Origin: Epilithonimonas xixisoli
GTDB taxonomy: Bacteria; Bacteroidota; Bacteroidia; Flavobacteriales; Weeksellaceae
Assembly (NCBI RefSeq): GCF_004365655.1
Contig: NZ_SOEO01000001.1
Location: 1 to 64,000, forward strand
DNA length: 64,000 nucleotides
Direction: 5' to 3'
Shown here: in pieces, positions 28,352-33,410 of the stretch
How positions within the stretch are numbered: the stretch's first letter is position 1
How the letters are laid out: each line of letters begins with the position of its first letter
Notes under the pieces: model-generated
The model's database searches: none
What the model saw: the letters and a program-made list of their open reading frames with translations, nothing else
Told to the model about the DNA's origin: nothing
Program-made: the position numbers and the translations under genes

Positions 28352-28392
28352 TTTTGGAGTTTTAAAATAAATTGTAGCTTTGTAATTCAAAG
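28352..28392 (+). promoter_or_regulatory. promoter with overlapping palindromic operator (28401 gene)
   Basis: TTTTG (28352-28356), 18-bp spacer, then TAGCTTTG (28375-28382), fitting both halves of the Bacteroidota promoter. Overlapping the -7 element is CTTTGTAATTCAAAG (28378-28392), with CTTTG/CAAAG inverted arms. Exactly the same 15 bases sit at 29792-29806 before the metallophosphoesterase gene. Confidence 0.75.
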
Positions 28393-28400
28393 TTCTTTTT

Positions 28401-29018
28401 ATGGAATCGAAAAATTATCAGGAAGAGTTGGCGCACATCCGTCAGATGATGGAACGCAGTTCAAGATTTATTTCATTGAGTGGTTTGTCTGGCGTTATTG
28501 CAGGAATCGTGGCGTTGCTCGGTTCCGTCTATGTTTATTTCGTTTTCCAGAGAGAGGGCATCGATTACTTTGATGGCGAAAGGAATATTTACACGCCATC
28601 ATTAGCAAAGGAGTTATTTTTTGTCGCTTTGGTGATTTTGGTTTTAGCCATTTCTAGTGGATATATTTTCACCGCAAGAAAGAGCAAAAAGAAGAATCTG
28701 AAAATCTGGGATTCTATCACAAAAAAATTATTGGCAAATTTTGCAATTCCTTTGATAGCAGGTGGATTTTTTTGCTTGGCACTTTGGTATCATCACTTTT
28801 TTCCAATGATTGCGCCAGCAATGCTTATTTTTTATGGATTAGCTTTGATTAATGCAGAACGATATACGTTGAGCGACGTCAAATATCTTGGAATTTGCGA
28901 AGTAGTTCTTGGGATTATCGCTTTATTCTGGCTTGGTTGGGGATTGGTATTTTGGGCGATTGGATTTGGATTTTTGCATATTTTTTATGGGATTTTAATG
29001 TATCGGAAATACGATTAA
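28401..29018 (+). CDS. polytopic membrane protein of a winged-helix regulator cluster
   Basis: 205 aa. A short cytoplasmic N-terminus (ELAHIRQMMERSS) is followed by about six hydrophobic segments (near residues 24-50, 70-92, 110-128, 132-150, 160-180 and 180-197). No catalytic motif is seen. In other Flavobacteriia such a protein is, from memory, often found directly before a small winged-helix regulator; here a four-helix-bundle gene intervenes. Its promoter carries the 15-bp palindrome discussed above. It may be the membrane partner or a target of the regulator; function unknown. Confidence 0.7.
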   Translation: MESKNYQEELAHIRQMMERSSRFISLSGLSGVIAGIVALLGSVYVYFVFQREGIDYFDGERNIYTPSLAKELFFVALVILVLAISSGYIFTARKSKKKNLKIWDSITKKLLANFAIPLIAGGFFCLALWYHHFFPMIAPAMLIFYGLALINAERYTLSDVKYLGICEVVLGIIALFWLGWGLVFWAIGFGFLHIFYGILMYRKYD

Positions 29019-29022
29019 TCGT

Positions 29023-29054
29023 TTTTTAGTTTGTCAGTTTTTTAGTTAATTAGT
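29023..29054 (+). repeat. four 8-bp units ending in AGT
   Basis: TTTTTAGT, TTGTCAGT, TTTTTAGT, TAATTAGT step by exactly 8 bp and end 8 bp before the start of the four-helix-bundle gene. The last units contain one arm (29043-29056) of a perfect 14-bp inverted repeat whose other arm is 29439-29452. Confidence 0.75.
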
Positions 29055-29062
29055 TTTTATTT

Positions 29063-29449
29063 ATGGGAATAATATTGTCTTTTAAGGATTTGATAGTATG
29101 GCAGAAATCACACCAGTTTGTTCTTGAGATTTATTCTGTCACAGTTGGTTTTCCTAAAAAAGAAATTTATGCATTGACAAGTCAGATTAGGCGTGCATCA
29201 GTTTCCATTCCTGCTAATATCGCTGAAGGGTTTAAGAAAAAGACTTTACCAAATAAAATTAATTTTCTATCGCATTCCGAAGGTTCATTAGAAGAAGTCA
29301 AATATTATTTAATCTTAGCAAAAGACCTTAATTATATATCTTTAAACAATTTTGATAAACTAACCTCAGATGCTGAAGAAGTAAGTAAACTGATAAATGG
29401 GTATAAAAAATCTATAAATAACTTCCATCAAAATAATCAAACTAATTAA
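29063..29449 (+). CDS. four-helix-bundle protein (23S rRNA intervening-sequence type)
   Basis: 128 aa. The signature motifs of the family are present: FKDLIVWQKSHQFVLEIY near the N-terminus (cut here to DLIVWQKS), IRRASVSIPANIAEGF (about residues 43-58) and SLEEVKYYLILA (about 75-86). These proteins are S23-type helical bundles first found in rRNA intervening sequences and widespread as free-standing genes in Bacteroidota, function unknown. The gene is bracketed by a 14-bp inverted repeat whose right arm contains its stop codon, and it separates two genes that look like partners, so it looks like an inserted cassette. Confidence 0.85.
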   Translation: MGIILSFKDLIVWQKSHQFVLEIYSVTVGFPKKEIYALTSQIRRASVSIPANIAEGFKKKTLPNKINFLSHSEGSLEEVKYYLILAKDLNYISLNNFDKLTSDAEEVSKLINGYKKSINNFHQNNQTN

Positions 29450-29472
29450 CTATCCTACTGGATAACTAGTCA
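29441..29472 (+). repeat. four 8-bp units beginning with ACT
   Basis: ACTAATTA, ACTATCCT, ACTGGATA, ACTAGTCA, with a fifth ACT at 29473, at an exact 8-bp step. The array runs up to 4 bp before the winged-helix regulator start. It is the partial inverse of the array at 29023-29054. Confidence 0.75.
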
Positions 29473-29476
29473 ACTA

Positions 29477-29767
29477 ATGTTAAACATCAATCAACTCAAC
29501 AAAGAATTCGAAAGTCGTGTAAGATTGGGCATTATGTCCGTTCTTATGGTCAACGATTGGGTTGATTTTACTGAAATGAAAAACCTTCTCAGCGCCACCG
29601 ACGGAAATCTCGCCAGCCATAGCACAGCGCTGGAAAAAGCAGAATACATCGAAGTGAAAAAGGAATTCGTCGGCAAAAAACCGCGAACATCCTATCGCGT
29701 GACGCAAAAGGGAAGAGATGCGTTCACAGAACATATCAATAATCTGGAAAAATTGTTGGGACGATAA
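29477..29767 (+). CDS. winged-helix transcriptional regulator
   Basis: 96 aa, a single winged-helix domain: helical SRVRLGIMSVLMVND, a recognition-helix region DGNLASHSTALEKA (about residues 46-59) and a wing (YIEVKKEFVGKKPRTSYRVT, key residues KPRTSY), then a short C-terminal helix for dimerisation. This is the small MarR/PadR-like 'HTH_34-type' regulator with no sensor domain. It probably represses its own neighbourhood; the CTTTGTAATTCAAAG palindromes on the -7 elements of the flanking transcription units are candidate binding sites. Confidence 0.85.
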   Translation: MLNINQLNKEFESRVRLGIMSVLMVNDWVDFTEMKNLLSATDGNLASHSTALEKAEYIEVKKEFVGKKPRTSYRVTQKGRDAFTEHINNLEKLLGR

Positions 29768-29788
29768 CTCCCGATTTTTTTTGAAAAT

Positions 29789-29806
29789 TAACTTTGTAAT
29801 TCAAAG
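29789..29806 (+). promoter_or_regulatory. -7 element with overlapping palindromic operator (metallophosphoesterase unit)
   Basis: TAACTTTG (29789-29796) matches TAnnTTTG; the palindrome CTTTGTAATTCAAAG spans 29792-29806 and is identical to the one at 28378-28392. No clear -33 box. The downstream start codon is at 29825. Confidence 0.7.
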
Positions 29807-29824
29807 AACTTTACAATATAAAAA

Positions 29825-30661
29825 ATGAATCGAAAAGAATTTATAATCAAATCTTTTTTAGCAACGGCAGGATTGTCATTATTCTACAGTTGGCAAGTCG
29901 AGCCGTTTTGGCTGGAGTTTGTTCATCAGGATTTACCAATTAAAAATCTGCCTTCAAAACTTCACAATAAAGTCCTGATGCAGATTTCAGATTTGCACGT
30001 CGGAAATCGTTTCGATTATAATTTCCTGATTGATTCCTTCCAAAAAGCAAAATCTTACAAGCCAGACATTGTGGTTTACACCGGAGATTTTGTTTGTTGG
30101 GAAGATAATCCCGAACAATTTGAACAACTGAAAATCGTAATGAAAGAAGCCGTTCTCGGAACTCTCGGAACAATCGCAATTCTCGGAAACCACGATTATG
30201 GATCGAATTGGAAAGAAGAATATGTCGCCGATGAAATCTCAAAAATACTGACAGATTCCAAAATACAAATGCTTCGAGATGAGAAAGCAGATATTTCCGG
30301 ACTCAATATTTATGGTTTCGAAGAATTATGGGGAATGAATTTCCACCCAGAAAATCTAACCACAACCATCAATCCTGATGAAGCCAATCTCGTCCTTTGT
30401 CACAATCCCGACGTTTGCGATTTGGATGTTTGGAACGGTTACAAAGGTTGGATTCTCTCCGGACATACACACGGAGGACAATGCAAACCGCCATTTCTTC
30501 CGCCATTAATTCTGCCCGTGAAAAACCGAGAATACACTTCCGGAATCATCGATTTGGACGATGGACGGATGCTCTACATCAATCGAGCGTTGGGACATTC
30601 TTACCAAGTCAGATTCAATTGCAGACCGGAGATTACAATTTTTACTATGAAATCTATTTAA
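29825..30661 (+). CDS. membrane-associated metallophosphoesterase (YkuE/YaeI-like)
   Basis: 278 aa. N-terminal Arg-containing hydrophobic signal or anchor (MNRKEFIIKSFLATAGLSLFYS). The calcineurin-like site is complete: ISDLHVGN (Asp-His), YTGDFV (Gly-Asp), ILGNHDYG (Asn-His-Asp), LCHNPD (His) and SGHTHGGQ (His-x-His). Family members of this type hydrolyse phosphodiesters such as UDP-2,3-diacylglucosamine-like lipids or other envelope substrates; the actual substrate is unknown. First gene of a plus-strand run that ends at 33349, with the palindromic operator in front. Confidence 0.85.
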   Translation: MNRKEFIIKSFLATAGLSLFYSWQVEPFWLEFVHQDLPIKNLPSKLHNKVLMQISDLHVGNRFDYNFLIDSFQKAKSYKPDIVVYTGDFVCWEDNPEQFEQLKIVMKEAVLGTLGTIAILGNHDYGSNWKEEYVADEISKILTDSKIQMLRDEKADISGLNIYGFEELWGMNFHPENLTTTINPDEANLVLCHNPDVCDLDVWNGYKGWILSGHTHGGQCKPPFLPPLILPVKNREYTSGIIDLDDGRMLYINRALGHSYQVRFNCRPEITIFTMKSI

Positions 30662-30678
30662 TATTAAAATCAACACTT

Positions 30679-30969
30679 ATGGAAAATTTTAAAATTCTAC
30701 ACATTGGGAAGTTTCTGTTTTGGCTCTCATTTATCTTAGGAAATGTCTGTCTCTTTGGTTACATTTTTTCTCGCGAAGGCGCATTTCAAGTTGGTGGTTT
30801 TTTGCTTTTGATGTATGGGACAATCGTCAATCTTATTGCGTTTTTTGGATTAATCTTATTTGGGGTTTTCGCTCCAAAATATACAACCGAAGCCATTAAA
30901 TCTGCAATGATTTTACTCATCAATATTCCCATTGCCATTCTCTATTTCTACATCGGAATATCAATTTAA
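30679..30969 (+). CDS. small membrane protein
   Basis: 96 aa from the ATG at 30679, 17 bp after the metallophosphoesterase stop. A longer frame starting inside the metallophosphoesterase gene is rejected because its first part is out-of-frame shadow. Three hydrophobic segments are visible (about residues 9-31, 37-60 and 70-94). No family recognised. Spacing suggests cotranscription with its neighbours on both sides. Confidence 0.75.
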   Translation: MENFKILHIGKFLFWLSFILGNVCLFGYIFSREGAFQVGGFLLLMYGTIVNLIAFFGLILFGVFAPKYTTEAIKSAMILLINIPIAILYFYIGISI

Positions 30970-30979
30970 AATAAAAATT

Positions 30980-31465
30980 ATGAAAAAAAATCGCGTTCAA
31001 TTTCTGCTTTTTGTTTATGACAACACACAAAAACTTTACAGGAAATATTTTAAGAAAAAGAAAAGACAATGGGCATTTTCCCAACAACAACTCTTGGATT
31101 TCGAGGAAGATACGCTTGGAAGAAAACTTGGCGAATTCTACAAAAAGCACGGTTTTACGATGATTCCTAAAATGGAAAATCACGATGTTCATCATTTGCT
31201 TACGGATTGTGGAACCAGGTTCGAAGAAGAAGTCGCAATGCAATTCTTACTGCTCGGCAATGGAAAAATGAATGCGCATCTTCTGGCTTCTATCTTTTTG
31301 GGAAGTCTCATTCTTCCGGAATATTTCAAAATTTATATGCAGGCATATAAGAAAGGGAAGTGTATGAGGTCTTTCTACTATTGGGATTTTGAGAAATTGC
31401 TCTCCCACAATTTTGAGAACATCAGAGATTTTGTTTACCAAAAACAAACACCAGTTTTCTATTAG
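30980..31465 (+). CDS. Coq4-like protein
   Basis: 161 aa from the ATG at 30980. Helical protein with HDVHH at residues 68-72 and Glu84, i.e. the HDxxH-x11-E metal-binding signature of the Coq4 family. Coq4 acts in ubiquinone synthesis; Flavobacteriia use menaquinone, so a ubiquinone role is unlikely and this is best called Coq4-like with unknown function. It lies between a small membrane protein gene (10 bp upstream) and a DUF4173-like membrane protein gene (35 bp downstream). Confidence 0.75.
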   Translation: MKKNRVQFLLFVYDNTQKLYRKYFKKKKRQWAFSQQQLLDFEEDTLGRKLGEFYKKHGFTMIPKMENHDVHHLLTDCGTRFEEEVAMQFLLLGNGKMNAHLLASIFLGSLILPEYFKIYMQAYKKGKCMRSFYYWDFEKLLSHNFENIRDFVYQKQTPVFY

Positions 31466-31500: not shown

Positions 31501-32886
31501 ATGAAAAAACATCACTTAATCTTCATCACAGTTTTAGCGGTTATCATTTTATTTTACAAGGAATATATCGCACTCAATCTCGGAATTTTTGGAATATTCC
31601 TGAGCATTTTAACTTTCACTCAAACCAAATCAGATTTGCGTGACAAAACATTTCTGACGCTTTTCGTTACTTCCATTTTTTCATCCTTTGCGTTTGCTTG
31701 GTTTGGCGATGCCATTTCTTTTGTAGCAGTTTTTGTCTCCGTTTTTTTATTGAGGTTCAGAGGAACTTATCCGAGATTGAAACCTTTTCTTTACATCGAA
31801 GTTTTATTAATCAATCTTTTTTCATTTCTGGGAAGAGTTTTCAACACGGAACAATGGTATGAGAAACCCACAGAAGGGAAAAGCTTTGCCAAAAAATTCA
31901 TCACTTTTGTTTTGATTCCCGGATTATTTGTGGCGATTTTCTTCTTTATTTATTCTTTTGGGAGTGACCATTTCGCCAATCTTTTCAGAGATTCTGAGTT
32001 GGATTTTGAACCGTTGACAGTTATTATTCTTTCTGTTATTGGTTTCTATTTTGGTTTTATTTTCTGGAATTTTGGTGTTGACCGATTTATCTTCAAACAA
32101 AATCACCATTTGAAAGACGACTTTTCCGGCATCATCAAATTAGAAAAACCAACTTTTTCTTTCCTCGACATCGATTCCGAAAGAGTGAGCGGATTCATCT
32201 CATTATCAGCACTTAATATTTTGCTTTTAATTTTTATTGTGACTTACAATTATGAACAGTTTTATGAAGTCACAACATCCGCAGACACTTTGAGTGCCGA
32301 AACACGCGACCGCGTGAATGCCGTGATAATGTCTATCATAATGGCAATTCTTGTGATTTTGTTTTACTTTAAAAATGGATTTAATTTTGATGAGAAAGCA
32401 AAAACTTTGAAGATTTCTGCAAAAATTTGGATTGTTTTGAATGGCGTTTTGGTTCTCTCAGCTCTCATCAAAAACGCGGAATATATTTCCGGTTATGGTT
32501 TGACTTACAAACGTTTGGGCGTTTACGCTTTCCTAACAATGGCTTTGATTGGTTTGATTTTTACCTTCATCAAAATTCAAAAAAAGAAGACCAATGCGTT
32601 TCTTTTCAACAAGATGTTTTGGGTGTCGTATGGCTTGATTTTGGTTTGCAGTTACGTGAATTGGGGCGGAATCATTACCTCAAACAACATTCAAAGAAAA
32701 GATTTCGCAGATAATTATCATCTAGTTTCCATTAATTATAATGAAAGAACTTTGTTGGATTATGCTGAGAAATCTGGAAATTCCGAAATGAAAAATAAAC
32801 TCACAGAAAGAATAGAATCTTATCAACAAGAAACTTTCCTCTCAAAAATACTTTATTATGAATCTATTAAAATTGAAAAAGAATAA
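31501..32886 (+). CDS. polytopic membrane protein, DUF4173/DUF4153-like
   Basis: 461 aa. About ten hydrophobic segments, starting with two near the N-terminus and ending with a soluble C-terminal stretch (from about residue 395) containing an FADNYHLVSINYNERTL-type segment. The layout matches the DUF4173/DUF4153 membrane proteins that in Flavobacteriia commonly travel with small winged-helix regulators (recalled, not checked). Its 3' end overlaps the next gene by 29 bp in another frame. Confidence 0.72.
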   Translation: MKKHHLIFITVLAVIILFYKEYIALNLGIFGIFLSILTFTQTKSDLRDKTFLTLFVTSIFSSFAFAWFGDAISFVAVFVSVFLLRFRGTYPRLKPFLYIEVLLINLFSFLGRVFNTEQWYEKPTEGKSFAKKFITFVLIPGLFVAIFFFIYSFGSDHFANLFRDSELDFEPLTVIILSVIGFYFGFIFWNFGVDRFIFKQNHHLKDDFSGIIKLEKPTFSFLDIDSERVSGFISLSALNILLLIFIVTYNYEQFYEVTTSADTLSAETRDRVNAVIMSIIMAILVILFYFKNGFNFDEKAKTLKISAKIWIVLNGVLVLSALIKNAEYISGYGLTYKRLGVYAFLTMALIGLIFTFIKIQKKKTNAFLFNKMFWVSYGLILVCSYVNWGGIITSNNIQRKDFADNYHLVSINYNERTLLDYAEKSGNSEMKNKLTERIESYQQETFLSKILYYESIKIEKE

Positions 32887-33349
32887 TAATTTGAAATATC
32901 TGGCTTTAATTCCATTATTTGTCGTCGCTTGTAAAAAGGAACCGGAAGTGAAAGATGCAAAAGTGGATACAATTACAACGATTGAAAAACCTATCGATTC
33001 GCTTTCCACAATTCTAAAAACAGAGAAAGAATCCAATCAAAATATCATCACAGTTGATGCATCCAAAATGCCAATCAGACTTAATTTGGAAATTACCAAT
33101 CCTAATGATCAAATTATTCTAAGATTGGAAAATGTAAATCAACCTAAAATAAAAGGTTACTTGAAAACAGAAACACCAATGAATGTGAGGTTCAACCAAA
33201 TCAGAATGCCAGATAATTCTTTTGATGGACCATTTGCCCAAACTATAGAATATGATACGAAATTGAAAGGAGAATATTGGCTGATTCTCGCCAAGAATAA
33301 TATGGCAGATGGATCGCCAGTCGGAAAATTCTTTGTCAAAATCGAATAA
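32858..33349 (+). CDS. hypothetical lipoprotein
   Basis: 163 aa. The signal is unusual in having a longer Lys/Asn-rich n-region (MNLLKLKKNNNLKYLALIPL) before FVVACKK (Cys25). The mature part is beta-rich. The first 29 bp overlap the DUF4173-like gene, suggesting translational coupling. Last gene of the cluster, followed at once by a perfect palindromic terminator. Confidence 0.7.
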   Translation: MNLLKLKKNNNLKYLALIPLFVVACKKEPEVKDAKVDTITTIEKPIDSLSTILKTEKESNQNIITVDASKMPIRLNLEITNPNDQIILRLENVNQPKIKGYLKTETPMNVRFNQIRMPDNSFDGPFAQTIEYDTKLKGEYWLILAKNNMADGSPVGKFFVKIE

Positions 33350-33350
33350 T

Positions 33351-33380
33351 AAAAAAGAATCTCAATTGAGATTCTTTTTT
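33351..33380. terminator. bidirectional terminator
   Basis: A perfect 30-bp palindrome of the form A6-GAATCTCAATTGAGATTC-T6. It lies between convergent transcription units (stop at 33349 plus and aroQ stop at 33411 minus) and can terminate both. Confidence 0.92.
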
Positions 33381-33410
33381 ATTATTTATCTAGTTTCTAA
33401 ACGCTAACTT

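Follow-up and report, generated by a model that had tools for sequence, protein, structure and literature searches.

PadR one-component repressors are frequently encoded beside a membrane protein, and they use operators of the type ATGT-N8-ACAT, from which the operator discussed here differs. In systems of the Mlc-PtsG type, the repressor is captured by a membrane protein. For the PF13601 (HTH_34) family, to which PH1061 (PDB entry 1ub9) of Pyrococcus horikoshii belongs, no papers were found in the open-licence PubMed Central literature. CreD, from the CreBC-CreD system of Proteobacteria, is reported to contribute to envelope integrity in Stenotrophomonas maltophilia (PMC4689548). In this work, we analysed 64,000 nucleotides of Epilithonimonas xixisoli DNA (contig NZ_SOEO01000001.1, positions 1 to 64,000; the window), in which the gene for a PF13601 winged-helix regulator lies between two copies of one palindrome.

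We consider it likely, with a probability of roughly 0.8, that the palindromes are operators of a PF13601 autorepressor, which would control an orphan membrane protein (MP) encoded next to it, a DUF4153 protein or CreD, and small membrane proteins.

The sites and the regulator

The palindrome CTTTGTAATTCAAAG is present in exact form at 28378-28392 and 29792-29806. An earlier note, made from the sequence of the window alone, had reported these identical 15-bp sites and had seen no other copy. Our search agreed, and no third exact copy was found within the window. The -7-like octamers, TAGCTTTG (28375-28382) and TAACTTTG (29789-29796), are also present as described there. All features of the window given below with coordinates are on the forward (+) strand. 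Operator 1 (28378-28398) consists of the palindrome CTTTG-TAATT-CAAAG and a third half-site, TTCTTT, and is conserved jointly with site 2. The end of its palindrome is separated by 8 bases from the start codon of the MP gene (28401-29018). Operator 2 (29792-29812), which is also found in relatives, has an exact copy of the palindrome, followed by the third half-site AACTTT.

The regulator (29477-29767, 96 residues) scores 110.8 bits against the PF13601 profile, far above the cut-off of 27, and has no other domain, which bears out its description as a small winged-helix protein without a sensor domain. It does lie between the two sites, as had been stated, but the gene for a 23S_rRNA_IVP / four-helix-bundle protein (29063-29449) lies there as well. 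The AlphaFold 2 model of the regulator is a winged helix with a predicted local distance difference test score (pLDDT) of 94.7. The closest PDB match, both by sequence and by fold, is 1ub9, with template modelling scores of 0.82/0.79.

The genome of the source organism (3.39 Mb in 11 contigs) contains one further exact copy of CTTTGTAATTCAAAG. It is located on another contig, 29 bases 5' of the start codon of a 96-residue membrane protein. The more specific motif CTTTGNAWTTCAAAG matches the genome three times, versus 0 matches for the control. Looser searches were of little use. The pattern CTTTGN5CAAAG was not enriched genome-wide (7 matches versus 13 in the reversed control) and is uninformative as a test. 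Three of its four other matches in the genome fall within long open frames, and the fourth (C1:86781) is within no stop-to-stop frame of at least 150 residues. A search of the window with 3 mismatches (15 matches, 7.85 expected) was too loose. For the extended palindrome, again allowing 3 mismatches, the count was 731 versus 767 in the control. The window alone does not exclude chance, which is excluded because of the comparison between genomes.

Co-occurrence of regulator and sites

Within the genus, the regulator is present in 20 of 23 genomes, with 94-100% identity. The specific motif CTTTGNAWTTCAAAG is found in all 20 genomes that have the regulator, and in none of the 3 that do not; the reversed control matched in 4 genomes, once per genome. 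Many random copies throughout the genome, which the earlier note had named as one outcome that would refute its proposal, did not turn up: the specific motif is rare, with 0 to 4 places per genus genome, and tracks the regulator. Matches within long open frames in three genomes (two in G012, one each in G014 and G021) were excluded from the site count, and one further match is in G004 (C28). The third site precedes the same small membrane protein, unlinked to the locus, in 16 of the 20 genomes. In a 17th (G021), it is found in the same context, with no open reading frame (ORF) within the limits used (50 residues, 250 bases).

At the level of the order, 148 genomes were sampled, and matches with an expectation value (E) of at most 1e-20 were taken as strong orthologues. 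Regulator matches occur in 51 genomes, 39 of them strong and 12 weak. The strict motif ACTTTGNNNNNCAAAGTNCTTT is found in 40 of the 148 genomes, namely in 39/39 with a strong orthologue and in 1/109 without; the 12 genomes with only weak regulator matches contain no motif. The reversed control of the strict motif matched once across all 148 genomes. For the co-occurrence, Fisher's test gives p = 4.6e-35, with the genomes treated without correction for kinship. Most of the order loci that were fetched have both exact sites, down to a regulator identity of about 50%, and MP clusters with the regulator as a pair in 48 of the 49 longer loci.

For a comparison across the phylum, the best 80 of at least 589 regulator relatives were taken from a profile scan of GTDB contigs. 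They include records from Chryseobacterium, Elizabethkingia, Flavobacterium, Aquimarina, Niabella, Sediminibacterium, Siphonobacter, Solitalea, Saprospiraceae and Bacteroidales, which we take to represent several orders. MP and the regulator occur together in all 80 loci. A strain of Flavobacterium johnsoniae (L204) is among the records that carry both sites. Conservation upstream of orthologues had been suggested as a check, and sites are indeed found on both sides of the MP-regulator pair in 74 of the 80 phylum loci, and in 18 of the 20 genus loci within the fetched stretches. Of the other genus loci, one has site 1 about 4.6 kb away, beyond other ORFs, and one was not scorable at site 2. 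In G050, whose contig has the same length as that of L228, the second site is 3.3 kb downstream.

The genes that follow the second site are of recurrent types. Of the 80 loci, 66 encode a DUF4153 homologue and 6 encode CreD, as judged by homology, in the 6.3 kb examined on the same strand (some contigs end earlier). Among the 49 longer loci, the CreD cluster is present in 12, with one member confirmed by PF06123. The lipoprotein-like homologue occurs in 21 of the 80 loci, and Coq4-like proteins, YaeI-like phosphoesterases, DUF1361 and DUF2809 proteins and small membrane proteins are other recurrent members. In Flavobacterium, further copies of the motif lie before genes for a Peptidase_C92 (YaeF/YiiX) protein, a Coq4-like protein that narrowly misses its cut-off, and a protein with a VIT domain. 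The proposed co-control of the membrane protein 28401 and the downstream unit is supported, with some changes: the membrane protein is a constant partner rather than just a target, and the predicted regulon reaches unlinked genes. Some genomes have additional copies of the operator within the downstream unit, in front of either the phosphoesterase or the Coq4-like gene (L012:2284, L022:2153, L121:5320 and 6192).

Natural loss of the regulator

Two genus genomes, G006 and G020, are without the regulator, MP and DUF4153, and have kept the third target with 71-73% identity. At the third site they have CTTAGTCCTTTAAAGTTCCTTA or ATTAGTCCTTTAAAGTTCTTTA where relatives have CTTTGTAATTCAAAGTTCTTTA. 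The arms of the palindrome have decayed from CTTTG to CTTAG or ATTAG and from CAAAG to TAAAG, and the flanks still match those of relatives. In the -7 region of the third target, TTTG has likewise decayed after regulator loss. In the third genome, G019 (locus L265), a broken DUF4153 remnant and the lipoprotein gene come after a thioesterase gene; MP and the regulator were not detectable, and the third target is missing. Comparison of the genomes thus shows that the sites are conserved, that they co-occur with the regulator, and that they are lost and decay together with it.

Architecture of the sites

To describe the sites, 144 distinct site-1 and 138 distinct site-2 sequences were collected with the pattern CTTTGN5CAAAG, so that its ten defined positions are invariant by construction and the counts cover only loci that have the pattern. 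The general site is ACTTTG-N5-CAAAGT-n-CTTT, with three half-sites. The base before the palindrome is A in 134/144 site-1 and 131/138 site-2 sequences, the base after it is T in 140/144 and 108/138, and CTTT follows two bases beyond in 135/144 and 133/138, respectively. Within the spacer, position 7 is complementary to position 9 in 69% and 81% of sequences, and position 6 to position 10 in 7% and 14%. The length of the spacer is strict. In 186 stretches around the regulator (some genomes being represented twice), there are 352 matches with a spacer of 5, and 0 or 1 for each of the spacers 2-4 and 6-10.

Sigma-A promoters of Bacteroidota have a -33 element TTG. In the window, this element (28354-28356) is separated by 18 nucleotides from the -7 box TAGCTTTG (28375-28382), so that the site 1 promoter, as read from the sequence, spans 28354-28382. 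Among the 144 site-1 sequences, TAnnTTTG is present in 116, TTG at a spacing of 18-20 in 124, and both in 104. By these elements, site 1 is a predicted sigma-A promoter. Gene order and spacing suggest that MP and the regulator form one operon, and site 1 is thus a palindromic site over the promoter of the regulator's own operon. PMC9723704 gives TAnnTTTG as the Bacteroidota -7 consensus, with the box at -12 to -5. With this numbering, the palindrome of site 1 extends from about -9 to +6; its third half-site is at about +9 to +12. The position would therefore fit a repressor.

Site 2 is distinguished by a T-tract, which in the window is found by sequence comparison at 29775-29782, at a fixed spacing to operator 2 and 9 bases before it. 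The T run covers positions -15 to -9 of site 2, with T at -11 and -10 in 138/138 sequences and at -8 in 2/138. Five T at -13 to -9 are present in 132/136 sequences at site 2, versus 5/130 at site 1. Where additional sequence follows the regulator gene, the T run is still found next to the operator. At some internal sites, AAAATTT takes the place of the T-tract.

In the window, a scan for terminator-like structures found a hairpin over the regulator's stop codon (29755-29775), directly before the T-tract, which is a possible terminator in this genus. As an explanation of the T-tract throughout the phylum, an intrinsic terminator found no support, with a hairpin at or below -6 kcal/mol beside the tract in only 15 of 136 distinct sequences. 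Four unlinked Flavobacterium sites (L247, L248, L249 and L251) have, as read from the sequence, a near-identical hairpin-like stretch and eight T before the operator at the same spacing. They precede two types of genes (C92 peptidase and Coq4-like), which would suit the copying of a promoter cassette. In the stretch of the window that was scanned, terminator-like sites number 12, versus 3.8 in shuffled sequences. A sigma-70 consensus scan of the same stretch showed no excess (21 matches versus 19.9 in shuffles), and Rfam at its gathering threshold detected no RNA family there.

Genes and proteins of the locus

MP (205 residues) is an orphan six-helix membrane protein and the constant partner of the regulator. 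It matches no Pfam family above the cut-off, and among 49 members no Pfam family is shared by more than 3. The AlphaFold 2 model shows a short first helix, followed by six long helices, with a mean pLDDT of 85.2, and of about 51-60 over the first 30 residues. A search of the PDB with this fold returned no match at E of at most 0.001. The distribution of charges suggests that both ends are inside. MP has at least 7,652 relatives among 8,000 candidates; among the matches listed, those that have a name are called hypothetical or carry one of several conflicting names.

The 23S_rRNA_IVP gene inserted between MP and the regulator (PF05635, E 1.4e-39; TIGR02436) is probably not part of the system. 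Its cluster was found in 3 of 49 loci, namely in the window and in two other loci of the genus (L034 and L035). In further loci the gap between MP and the regulator holds other ORFs, and seems to be a repeated insertion point.

The unit behind operator 2 begins with a metallophosphoesterase (29825-30661) of YaeI/LpxG-like type, which matches PF00149, and the LpxG and YaeI models below their cut-offs. It is followed by a small membrane protein of 96 residues without a family (30679-30969, within the ORF 30397-30969) and by a Coq4-like protein of 161 residues (30980-31465; PF05019, 33.2 bits versus a cut-off of 22.9), the start codons of both having been chosen in the analysis. The large membrane protein downstream (31501-32886, 461 residues) had been described as DUF4173-like, and is actually a DUF4153 protein (PF13687, E 9e-35). 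The last gene (32858-33349) is an ORF for a lipoprotein-like protein of 163 residues that has no family. At the end of the unit, the terminator-like scan found a hairpin of 20 pairs (33344-33387). It is placed between the lipoprotein gene and a convergent gene, which we take to be AroQ-like, and could terminate transcription from both sides.

Discussion

In the mechanism that we propose, the regulator would bind ACTTTG-N5-CAAAGT, which at the MP-regulator promoter covers both the -7 box and the transcription start, and bound regulator would block RNA polymerase at site 1, resulting in autorepression. Binding as a dimer may be expected of a PF13601 protein, for which the palindromic sites that accompany the gene are an indirect indication. 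Operator 2, behind the regulator gene, would control the following unit, which in the window contains the phosphoesterase, the small membrane protein, the Coq4-like protein, DUF4153 and the lipoprotein, and in other lineages CreD. Scattered sites would control further genes. Because the regulator is without a sensor domain, the signal most likely enters through the constant partner MP, which may hold the regulator at the membrane or release it. Because of the types of targets, the signal is probably the state of the cell envelope. For both the entry of the signal and the envelope role, we draw on the constant linkage and the target types, together with what PMC4689548 reports for CreD in another phylum. 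More tentatively, and with considerable doubt, we suggest an envelope-sensing circuit throughout Bacteroidota. In it, MP would capture or release the PF13601 repressor at the membrane, a role that a two-component system would otherwise have for CreD and DUF4153, and operator 2 would be a new kind of element, made of a T-tract at fixed spacing and three half-sites, where a standard promoter would be expected.

Several points weigh against the assignment of the palindromes as operators of an autorepressor. At site 2, TAnnTTTG is found in 40/138 sequences, TTG at a spacing of 18-20 in 2/138, and both together in none, and by these elements the site is not a conserved sigma-A promoter. The earlier note had spoken of two promoters. 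This holds for site 1; site 2 has TAnnTTTG in the window, but no TTG at the usual distance, and promoter overlap is unsupported at site 2 in general because the -33 element is absent and TAnnTTTG mostly absent. The best 80 loci of the phylum lean to close relatives. Six of them (L220, L223, L228, L235, L236 and L237) are without site 2, and the 1.4 kb that follow the regulator contain no near match to it. In L220, site 1 also has one mismatch and is not exact, and in L223, L235 and L237 a start codon, by reading, follows closely 3' of the regulator. Among the order loci, one exact site is missing in L073/L095, L080/L130, L087/L131 and L112, and no site is found in L090-L092, where the regulator matches have 33-39% identity. 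One genome of the order (G272, only 68% complete) has the motif inside a 364-residue frame and no regulator match. The E cut-off for strong orthologues was set after the results had been seen, although any cut from 1.8e-24 to 8.1e-17 splits the genomes identically. The three genus genomes without the regulator represent two or three loss events, because G006 and G020 share changes. Finally, contact between MP and the regulator is pure conjecture.

Given the peculiarities of site 2, it could be asked whether this site acts on read-through from the MP-regulator operon, with a pause at the U-tract, bound regulator as a roadblock, and thus a regulated terminator. The T-tract, which 132 of 136 site-2 sequences have at a fixed distance just before the palindrome, would suit such a role, and so would the hairpin that precedes it in this genus and, by reading, at the four Flavobacterium sites. 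However, 121 of the 136 distinct sequences have no qualifying hairpin, the tract stays by the operator despite extra sequence after the regulator gene, and AAAATTT replaces it at some internal sites, so that we regard this explanation as rather unlikely. The regulator might also bind the sites and activate, or both activate and repress; DNA bending at promoters whose -33 element is poor would be one way. The lack of a -33 element at site 2, which an unaided promoter would have, and the decay of TTTG in the -7 region of the third target after loss of the regulator both speak for activation. Yet at site 1, which has a full sigma-A promoter, the operator overlaps the -7 box as well as the start site, and activators rarely bind there. 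Activation is thus unlikely too.

The binding of the regulator to the palindrome is itself predicted, and the arms of the palindrome overlap the -7 consensus. The palindrome could then be the target of another, unlinked regulator, or only a promoter or RNA element, with the neighbouring regulator as a bystander. This is improbable in view of the motif's occurrence in 39/39 genomes with a strong orthologue and 1/109 without, of its decay after regulator loss, and of the absence of any Rfam family from the scanned stretch of the window. Moreover, the palindrome is kept at site 2, where TAnnTTTG is not. Chance or a duplicated promoter, which the identity of the two 15-mers in the window might suggest, has next to no probability and has already been refuted by comparison, as the sites occupy the same positions throughout the phylum with different flanks. 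We therefore retain the assignment of the palindromes as probable operators of the PF13601 autorepressor.

The kind of system, a small winged-helix autorepressor with a palindromic operator, is already known. For this regulator, operator and regulon, no description was found in the open-licence PubMed Central literature. To our knowledge, few operators are known in Bacteroidota, and here a precise operator-regulator pair is kept across several orders of the phylum. The regulator and operator are tied to two families of membrane proteins, DUF4153 and CreD, as well as to an orphan one, and genes for mostly unannotated membrane proteins would become one regulon. The species that lost the regulator provide a natural experiment.

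In comparison with known systems, the locus shares with CreBC-CreD the presence of a CreD gene behind site 2 in some lineages. It differs from it in that the neighbour is a one-component regulator, and in that the unit in the window has DUF4153 instead of CreD. With the Mlc-PtsG type it has in common a sensorless repressor and a constant inner-membrane partner, although in our case we only infer the contact between the two. The PadR repressors are similar as small winged-helix proteins encoded beside a membrane protein gene, and the fold of the regulator matches, among others, the PadR-type structures 5zi8 (Rv3488) and 5h20. The regulator nevertheless scores below the PF03551 cut-off (21.4 versus 27 bits). 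The closest relationship is to PF13601 and PH1061, as judged by the profile score far above the cut-off and by 1ub9 as the nearest solved structure. Compared to PH1061, the regulator described here has a defined candidate operator, a membrane protein as its constant partner, and a predicted regulon.
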